A stretch of DNA of 64,000 bases from Chloroflexota bacterium (GTDB taxonomy: Bacteria; Chloroflexota; UBA11872). Within the stretch, counting starts at the first letter, position 1. Each line of letters opens with the position of its first letter. The stretch is taken from NCBI GenBank assembly GCA_028873795.1, contig JAPPNP010000026.1, positions 10,304-74,303 of the forward strand, in the 5' to 3' direction. This document shows, piece after piece, positions 10,743-15,286 of the stretch. The translations under genes were made by a program, and so were the position numbers. The notes beneath the pieces are model-generated. The model searched no databases. It had not been told where the DNA came from and saw only the letters and a program-made list of their open reading frames with translations.

Positions 10743-11170
10743 GAGGCACTCCTTGCCGGCGCAACCTGACGGGCGCCGGCCCTCGACCTCGGTGACAGTC
10801 GGCGGATTCGCCGGCCGTCGCCGGGTCTGGTGGAACTAGTGCCTCCCGAGCGAGTTCCGAATCTCGGTTTTGAGGTCGTCTCGTCGCCCGGACTCGTTCG
10901 GTCACAACTGCGGGCGCGTCGATAGACCCTCCAGAGATGATATCTGCCGCCCCGCCGAGTTTTCCAGTGTGGAATCGACATCGCGTCTCGTTGCGCGGCG
11001 TGCGCTCTGGCATCCTGAGCGTTCCTCTGCACGACCTCACGCCTCTGGTGTCACGCCAACTGCCCCGAGAGATTCGTCATTCCTGGCCGAGACCCGCCGA
11101 TCGGGCGCTGCTCCGTGTCGGCCTCGGGAGTCGCTGCGCGCCGCGTGCCGCCGGCCGGCTTCGAGTCCTC
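10743..11170. other. spacer upstream of ftsK and of the glycosidase-like gene
   Basis: 428 bases between divergent genes. Apart from the RNase J remnant at 10786-10890 I see no gene. The 875-codon reading frame of the right-hand gene runs back to 10937, but nothing upstream of 11171 resembles a conserved domain. Confidence 0.5.
10786..10890 (-). pseudogene. remnant of an RNase J C-terminus
   Basis: Translating the minus strand gives DDLKTEIRNSLGRH, a TAG stop, then FHQTRRRPANPPTVTEVEG. The intact RNase J at 13592 ends DYLQNKIRGSLGRHLFQKTRR-RPVILPIVTEV: the same order, spacing and most residues. The in-frame stop and the lack of the rest of the gene make it a relic. It sits directly upstream of ftsK in the same direction, just as a functional rnj would. 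Together with the intact copy it brackets the 11171-13564 gene. Confidence 0.8.
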
Positions 11171-13591: not shown

Positions 13592-15286
13592 CTAGACCTC
13601 CGTCACGATCGGCAGGATCACCGGACGCCGCCGGGTTTTCTGGAACAGGTGGCGTCCCAGCGAGCCCCGAATCTTGTTCTGCAGGTAGTCCACCTCCGGG
13701 TCCGGGTGGTCGCCGCGATCGATCGTCTGGCGCACGTGCTCGCGCGCCCGCTCCAGCAAGTCCTCGGACTCCGGGGTGTAGACGAACCCCCGCGAGATGA
13801 TGTCCGGCGTGCCCACGGACTTGCCCGTGTGGTGGTCCACCGCCGCCACCACCACGACCACGCCGTCCTCGGCCAGGTGCCGCCGGTCGCGCAGCACCGT
13901 CTCGCCCACGTCGCCCACGCCCAGGCCGTCCACGAACACCATGCCGGCCTCGACGTAGTCGGTAATCCCGGCCCGGTCGCGCGTCACCTCAATCACCGCG
14001 CCGTTTTCGGCCATCAGGATGTTCTTCCGCGGTAGCCCCACCGACTCCGCCAGCCGCCGATGCTCCACCAGGTGCCGGAACTCGCCGTGCACCGGCATGA
14101 AGAAGCGCGGGCGCAGCGTCGTCAGCACCAGCTTGAGCTCCTCCTGGCTGGCGTGGCCGGAGACGTGCACCGGGCGCAGCTGCTCGTAGTAGACGGTGGC
14201 GCCGATGTGCGCCAGCCGGTCGATGGTGTGGTTGACCTTGGCCTCGTTGCCGGGAATAGCAGCCGCCGAAACGATGATCGTGTCGTCGGGGGCAATGTCG
14301 ATGTTCCGGTGGTCCCGGTTTGCCATGCGCACCAGGGCCGAGCGCGGCTCGCCCTGTGAGCCGGTGCAGACGATGGCGATGTCCTCGGCGCGGAAGTTGT
14401 CCAGCTCCTCCGCGCCCACGATCAGGCCCTCGGGCACGCGCACGTAGCCCAGGTCGGCGGCCACCCGGTGCACGCGCTCCATGGAGCGGCCGATCAGCGC
14501 CACCTTGCGCCCGTAGGCGTGCGCCGCGTCGAAGACCTGCTGCGCGCGCGAGACGAGCGACGAGAACGTCGCCACGATGATCCGCCCCGGCGCCTCGGCG
14601 AAGATCTGGTCGAAGGTCTCCGCCACCACCTGCTCCGACGGCGTATAGCCGGGCCGGTCGGCGTAGGTGCTGTCGGCCATCAGCAGCAGCACGCCGTCGC
14701 GTCCCAGCCTGCCGAGGGTCTGAACGTCCGGCGGGCGCCCGTCCACCGGCGTGTAGTCGAGCTTGAAATCGCCCGTGTGCACGATCGTGCCGATCGGCGT
14801 GTGCACCGCAATGCCCGTGGCGTCGGGAATGCTGTGACACATGTGGAAGAACTCGCAGCGGAACGGCCCGATCTCGACGACGTCGCCGGCCTCGACCACG
14901 TGAAACTCCTGGCCGTCGACCAGCCGGGCCTCGTCCAGCTTCACCTGCACCAGCCCCAGCGTGAGCGCCGTGCCGTAGAGCGGCAGCGGAAAGTCCCGCA
15001 GGGCGAACGGCAGCGCGCCGATGTGGTCCTCGTGGCCGTGGGTCAGCAGGATGCCGCGCAGCTTGTGCCGAATCTGTCGCAGATAGCCGAAGTCGGGAAG
15101 GATCAGGTCCACGCCCAGGTGCTCGGCGTCCGGGAACGTCAGCCCGCAGTCGATGACGACTGCGTCGTCGCCGAACTCGATGACGGTGCAGTTCTTGCCG
15201 ATTTCCCCCACGCCGCCAATGGGCACGACGCGGACCGTGTCGGGATTCAAGTCCTGCTGCAACGCGCCCGCCGACGGGCGCCCCAT
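13592..15286 (-). CDS. rnj: ribonuclease J
   Basis: 564 residues, normal family length. Metallo-beta-lactamase domain with LTHGHEDHIGALPF (HxHxDH at ~82-88), MCHSIPDATGIAV and HTGDFKLDYTP; beta-CASP domain with ATFSSLVSRAQQV, CTGSQGEPRSALVRM and HVSGHASQEELKL; C-terminal domain ending TRRRPVILPIVTEV. The enzyme is a 5'-3' exo- and endonuclease for mRNA decay and rRNA maturation. The start codon abuts a palindromic repeat (15289-15315) and has only a weak ribosome site. A diverged copy of its last ~35 codons lies at 10786-10890. Confidence 0.95.
   Translation of the reverse strand: MGRPSAGALQQDLNPDTVRVVPIGGVGEIGKNCTVIEFGDDAVVIDCGLTFPDAEHLGVDLILPDFGYLRQIRHKLRGILLTHGHEDHIGALPFALRDFPLPLYGTALTLGLVQVKLDEARLVDGQEFHVVEAGDVVEIGPFRCEFFHMCHSIPDATGIAVHTPIGTIVHTGDFKLDYTPVDGRPPDVQTLGRLGRDGVLLLMADSTYADRPGYTPSEQVVAETFDQIFAEAPGRIIVATFSSLVSRAQQVFDAAHAYGRKVALIGRSMERVHRVAADLGYVRVPEGLIVGAEELDNFRAEDIAIVCTGSQGEPRSALVRMANRDHRNIDIAPDDTIIVSAAAIPGNEAKVNHTIDRLAHIGATVYYEQLRPVHVSGHASQEELKLVLTTLRPRFFMPVHGEFRHLVEHRRLAESVGLPRKNILMAENGAVIEVTRDRAGITDYVEAGMVFVDGLGVGDVGETVLRDRRHLAEDGVVVVVAAVDHHTGKSVGTPDIISRGFVYTPESEDLLERAREHVRQTIDRGDHPDPEVDYLQNKIRGSLGRHLFQKTRRRPVILPIVTEV

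Follow-up and report, generated by a model that had tools for sequence, protein, structure and literature searches.

The 3' end of the RNase J gene (rnj) in these Chloroflexota probably carried, within its coding sequence, a promoter and a regulatory leader of the neighbouring gene ftsK, and a duplication would then have separated the protein role from the control role (we give this reading a probability of roughly 0.78). It comes from the computational analysis of a window of 64,000 nucleotides, the whole stretch studied here (contig JAPPNP010000026.1), together with the corresponding loci of its genus, of the sister genus and of other members of the order and class. The duplication, the gene adjacency, the constraint, the promoter motif and the helices were established by comparing these sequences. 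The features of the window are listed in the table, where the duplicated rnj end, hereafter the relic, is the segment lying next to ftsK.

Features of the window around the duplicated rnj end (coordinates on the window, strand and basis).
Feature	Coordinates	Strand	Basis or remarks
Gfo/Idh-like oxidoreductase	4684..5736	+	53% identity; orthologue of the neighbour of the putative glycosidase gene in the sister genus
ftsK (FtsK/SpoIIIE DNA translocase)	8568..10742	-	Pfam FtsK; GTG start at 10742
P1, 3' strand, AGUGCCUC, between Shine-Dalgarno and ftsK GTG (predicted)	10743..10750	-	Six-species fold, alignment
ftsK Shine-Dalgarno, AAGGAG	10749..10754	-	Conserved in six species
Helix P3, just 5' of the Shine-Dalgarno (predicted)	10755..10780	-	Fold and covariation
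rnj 3' end duplicate (relic), probably kept as ftsK control region	10782..10971	-	blastn and translated comparison, alignment across relatives
Helix P2, last ~15 codons of the rnj relic (predicted)	10784..10828	-	99% of cells paired, compensatory changes
58-nt core	10808..10865	-	56 columns invariant in six species
Hairpin C, GGAACU...AGUUCC, excludes P1 (predicted)	10832..10858	-	Energy comparison, compensatory change
P1, 5' strand, GAGGCACU, anti-Shine-Dalgarno-spacer, from the rnj AGG codon (predicted)	10838..10845	-	Six-species fold, alignment
Sigma70-like promoter, TGGAAA-18-TATCAT, predicted for ftsK	10937..10966	-	Motif scan, conservation in relatives
Predicted secreted enzyme, 797 aa, barrel-like region	11171..13564	+	Weak WbsX and endo-alpha-mannosidase similarity
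Intact rnj (RNase J)	13592..15286	-	Pfam RNase_J_C; tail without promoter-like site, AGG codon and full helix

The locus is laid out as the original prediction had it, with an intact rnj ending at 13592, a lone gene on the opposite strand, and ftsK beyond. The broken copy of the RNase J C-terminus that it placed on the minus strand beside ftsK is real, and the alignment of the two rnj 3' ends that it proposed as a check is significant: blastn of 10601-11200 against 13401-15500 gave 71 identical nucleotides out of 99 on the same strand (E = 7e-14). The span of 10786-10890 (about 100 bp) first assigned to this copy was too short, for the same comparison gave an additional collinear match (10907-10971 against about 13768-13832; 67%, E = 5e-4). 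When translated, the relic matches rnj residues 533-564 at 63% identity, with one in-frame TAG, and its second piece matches residues 486-505 at 55%; between the two, its interior shows deletion and divergence. Chance is excluded as the origin of this similarity. The relic was found in all six genomes of the window's genus, each time with its reading frame broken by a TAG. No start codon is common to the six copies, and internal deletions are present. The window's genome encodes one intact rnj.

All six genomes of the window's genus have the same gene order: rnj, one to three tandem enzyme genes on the opposite strand, the relic and ftsK (in one of the six, the enzyme array is split over two contigs). 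In each of the 13 sister-genus genomes, ftsK comes directly after rnj, with a gap of 39-41 nt, and the adjacency extends to further families of the order and the class, some of them with longer gaps. This spacing in relatives, itself a check suggested beforehand, supports the view that an ancestral rnj-ftsK adjacency was split. One explanation offered for the split, the loss of a second full rnj gene, found no counterpart among the relatives, as one with two rnj genes was never found. The other, a duplication with insertion, was broadly right on the duplication because the adjacency is ancestral, but probably wrong in treating the enzyme gene as a new arrival. The sister genus encodes a full-length orthologue of the enzyme (64-71% identical); wherever its gene shares a compared locus with ftsK, it sits on the far side of ftsK, at a distance of 2.3-4.1 kb and with unchanged relative orientation. 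In the one sister-genus locus annotated in detail, a LacI-like gene and an MFS gene stand between ftsK and the enzyme gene, and Gfo/Idh genes lie beyond it; two genomes of this genus retain the neighbours and lack the full enzyme gene at the site. The window's genus still has a Gfo/Idh orthologue beyond ftsK. The enzyme gene was therefore probably near the locus before the split and changed place with the duplication, so that the relic does not date the arrival of the glycosidase, as had been suggested.

In the window's genus, the duplication of the rnj tail would thus be linked to the relocation of the neighbouring secreted-enzyme gene. The likely order of events is a tandem duplication of rnj tail, ftsK and enzyme gene, followed by the loss of one ftsK and one enzyme copy. 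Neither a relative with two ftsK copies, as an intermediate, nor an enzyme remnant at the expected second place beyond ftsK was found, so this mechanism is one that we infer. The endpoint of the duplication cannot be placed because the upstream flanks of the enzyme gene have no detectable DNA homology between the two genera. As regards the mechanism only, an alternative to the tandem duplication is that an element, circular or integrated, brought in the enzyme gene and duplicated the rnj tail as it inserted, and the displacement of a gene's 3' end by an insert is indeed typical of site-specific or single-crossover integration. We find this route rather doubtful, given the sister-genus enzyme gene beyond ftsK in the same orientation and beside a Gfo/Idh gene, the retention of that neighbour in the window's genus, and an insert made only of enzyme genes, with no integrase gene between rnj and the relic.

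If the relic were a decaying rnj fragment, as first proposed, it would be expected to evolve neutrally. Its in-frame TAG, its internal deletions and the lack of a shared start codon fit such a pseudogene, but its core does not evolve at the neutral rate: 56 of its 58 columns are invariant among six species, against 42 of the same columns in the intact rnj of the same genomes, and against 49% and 59% of the four-fold degenerate sites in ftsK and rnj (binomial P for 56/58 at the four-fold rate about 5e-11 or less). The spacer flanking the relic upstream has diverged freely in the same alignment. The homology with the rnj tail starts near the -35 element of a promoter-like site, and both this motif and an RNA pairing are conserved. 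Neutral decay is thus very improbable, and the reading fails because the relic appears strongly constrained as promoter and leader of ftsK. The core is present in a single copy per genome and is not a dispersed repeat.

The promoter-like site is the only one between 10600 and 11300, with 0.0 expected in shuffled sequences. It is present in the six relics and, in all 13 sister-genus genomes, at the homologous position within rnj, whose last 1,620 nt contain no other such site (13/13). A null model of synonymous recoding of these rnj tails gave P values of 0.006-0.046 for the appearance of any such site in the tail. At the homologous place in the intact rnj of the window's genus, the site was found in none of the six genomes. 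Across 19 loci, where it lies either between genes or within rnj, the motif is conserved; the predicted promoter matches the consensus at 9 of 12 positions. We infer that the site is active as a promoter. Another family of the class has TTGAAA-17-TATAAT (11/12) within rnj, 161 nt before the stop codon, in four genomes (L029, L030, L031 and L032). Promoters of ftsK within rnj may be common.

Our model for the ancestor and the sister genus is that the last ~240 nt of rnj would encode at once the C-terminus of RNase J, an internal ftsK promoter and a structured leader. The segment GGGAGGC of the rnj tail, which includes a rare AGG arginine codon, would pair with GCCUC just 5' of the ftsK start, closing a three-way junction and hiding the ribosome-binding region, and the leader would in this way lower ftsK translation. 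An alternative hairpin (GGAAC...GUUCC) would take up the pairing segment and leave the ribosome-binding site open. The relic and the spacer that follows are predicted to fold into such a junction in 6/6 species, with P1 as the closing helix. In the sister genus, the rnj-ftsK junction permits the same layout (GGGAGGC with GCCUCCC), and for two order-level relatives a P1-closed layout is what the folding predicts; in the order-level genomes G019 and G021, GGAGGC is kept in rnj with no clear partner before ftsK.

Several tests point to a conserved RNA. Over 17 sequences, 99% of the cells of helix P2 are paired, and both one-sided and compensatory changes occur. P2, P3 and hairpin C covary, the latter with a compensatory change, and P1 varies little (five of its base pairs never vary and two-sided change is absent). 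The covariation exceeds that of essentially all shuffles, and when the partners are slid against each other, pairing drops from 92% to at most 45%. G-U pairs assign the RNA to the ftsK strand. When three sister-genus tails were recoded synonymously, the real P2 pairing was reached in 0.1% or less of the trials, the energies being about -22 to -25 kcal/mol for the real sequences versus -11 kcal/mol for the recoded ones. The leader has modest folding z-scores, one test giving -4.1 and others -0.7 to -3.2. Across the genomes of both genera, the RNA model gives no further site at E <= 0.1, and a known RNA family was rejected, as nothing in Rfam reaches the curated gathering score and the best matches are at chance level. 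Two further candidates were set aside: a leader peptide with the conserved TAG as its stop codon, whose upstream frame is not common to the six species, and an N-terminal extension of ftsK, whose frame the TAG closes. It is also quite unlikely that the core acts as DNA, either as an operator or as a recombination site behind the amplification of the enzyme gene. The near-perfect conservation, which includes unpaired positions, and the variable number of enzyme copies (1-3) would suit a DNA element, but the core occurs once per genome and never between tandem enzyme copies, its G-U pairs and compensatory changes fit an RNA made from one strand, and it is part of the predicted leader, 3' of the promoter.

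The two copies of the rnj tail differ in what they retain. For the arginine of the pairing strand, rnj reads AGG in 13/13 sister-genus genomes and in the 2/2 alignable order-level genomes with an adjacent ftsK. AGG is rare in the rnj genes of the sister genus (39 of 625 arginine codons, 13 of the 39 being this site). All six relics keep it, and the intact rnj of the window's genus has CGN in 6/6 genomes (CGC in the window). Out of 17 P2 pairs, 12 of the 13 sister-genus rnj tails form all and the remaining one forms 16; relics form 16-17, and the intact rnj genes of the window's genus form 13-15 (13 in the window). RNA model scores are 108-114 bits for relics versus 53-57 bits for these intact genes. 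After the split, the copy joined to the rest of rnj would have kept the protein and lost the promoter motif, the AGG codon and the pairing; the copy joined to ftsK would have kept the promoter motif and the RNA and lost the reading frame to the TAG. The losses in the intact copy may amount to a few ancestral substitutions common to the genus, and the per-genome counts (6/6, 13/13) are not independent because the genomes are related and the losses possibly few shared events.

By the folding models, pairing between the core of the leader and the ftsK Shine-Dalgarno spacer is possible; in the sister genus, sequestration of the site is uncertain. Where both structures could be scored, the sister genus has P1 and hairpin C within ~4 kcal/mol of each other, and relics favour P1 by 3-7 kcal/mol. 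In whole predicted leaders, the probability of P1 is 0.37-1.0 in relics (mostly high) and 0-0.9 in the sister genus. Because of this last range, switching is a proposal only. We tentatively suggest that ftsK may be controlled by an undescribed bistable RNA switch, written in the RNase J gene, responsive to a signal and turned into a free-standing leader in one genus by the duplication. An alternative scheme is translational coupling alone, in which the ftsK site of the ancestor was opened by ribosomes as they completed rnj, and the fold persists in the relic through inertia. The closing strand lies in the rnj coding sequence ~60 nt before a stop codon that is itself 39-41 nt from ftsK, an arrangement like that of the MS2 coat and replicase genes. 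Yet translation does not run through the relic of the window's genus (TAG in 6/6, no shared upstream frame), where the RNA is the more strongly kept, and an internal promoter would yield the leader without translation of rnj. We therefore regard coupling as unlikely.

The promoter and leader embedded in rnj, as we read them, resemble known systems in part. In Escherichia coli infC-rpmI-rplT (the bL20 translational operator), the upstream coding region contains the promoter for the downstream genes, whose translation is controlled by a long-range RNA structure (PMC10931766). The rnj-ftsK pair has the motif of a putative promoter within the upstream coding region (13/13 in the sister genus) and a predicted long-range RNA, but involves other genes and a three-way junction, has no ligand known for its leader and, in the window's genus, has its dual-role DNA divided into two copies. 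In phage MS2, an mRNA structure linked to the upstream coat gene hides the start region of the replicase (PMC9894550). The ftsK start region would likewise be hidden by a structure linked to rnj; in contrast, the ftsK leader probably arises from an internal promoter, independently of upstream translation, and the element persists in the relic without any. Each copy of the rnj tail would have lost a different ancestral role. This is the pattern of duplication-degeneration-complementation (subfunctionalisation), in which the ancestral roles are divided between two duplicates by complementary losses, except that the roles here are protein coding and cis-regulation of the next gene instead of two functions of one protein. 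A search of the literature on rnj-ftsK regulation found nothing on the relic or leader. The architecture is of a known kind; what appear new are the element itself and the way a duplication separated it.

The case suggests caution with intergenic "gene remnants", which can be promoters or leaders that formerly lay within the neighbouring gene. It provides a natural experiment: after a stretch with two jobs had been duplicated, one job stayed with each copy, which makes the cost of regulatory information within coding sequence readable base by base. If the switch is real, coding and regulatory constraint can be compared directly on the same ancestral nucleotides. The model also predicts RNA control of ftsK, a chromosome-segregation gene.

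The nature of the enzyme has no bearing on the role of the relic. No Pfam family was found above the cut-off for it; a WbsX hint is present in all 12 homologues (best E 0.0015), and a poor structure model (pLDDT 53) weakly matches endo-alpha-mannosidase and other glycoside-active barrels, so that its identity as a "glycosidase" is plausible. Three of the six genomes of the genus carry its gene in 2-3 tandem copies (L053, L054, L057, L058). The N-terminal ~250 residues (11171-11900) form a widespread domain, with 35-40% matches to many proteins across these genomes and one weak LGFP-repeat hint. Elsewhere in the window, two adjoining genes of the DHDPS family (6442-8413) are present in addition to the dapA of the lysine cluster, and the intergenic region 5737-6445 contains GGGCAGCCACAAGGGCTGCCCCTACACCGGATGAAG twice. 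Among the contigs compared, one labelled Rhodospirillaceae (L104) carries a Chloroflexota gene, with an identity equal to that of L103, and is probably mis-binned.
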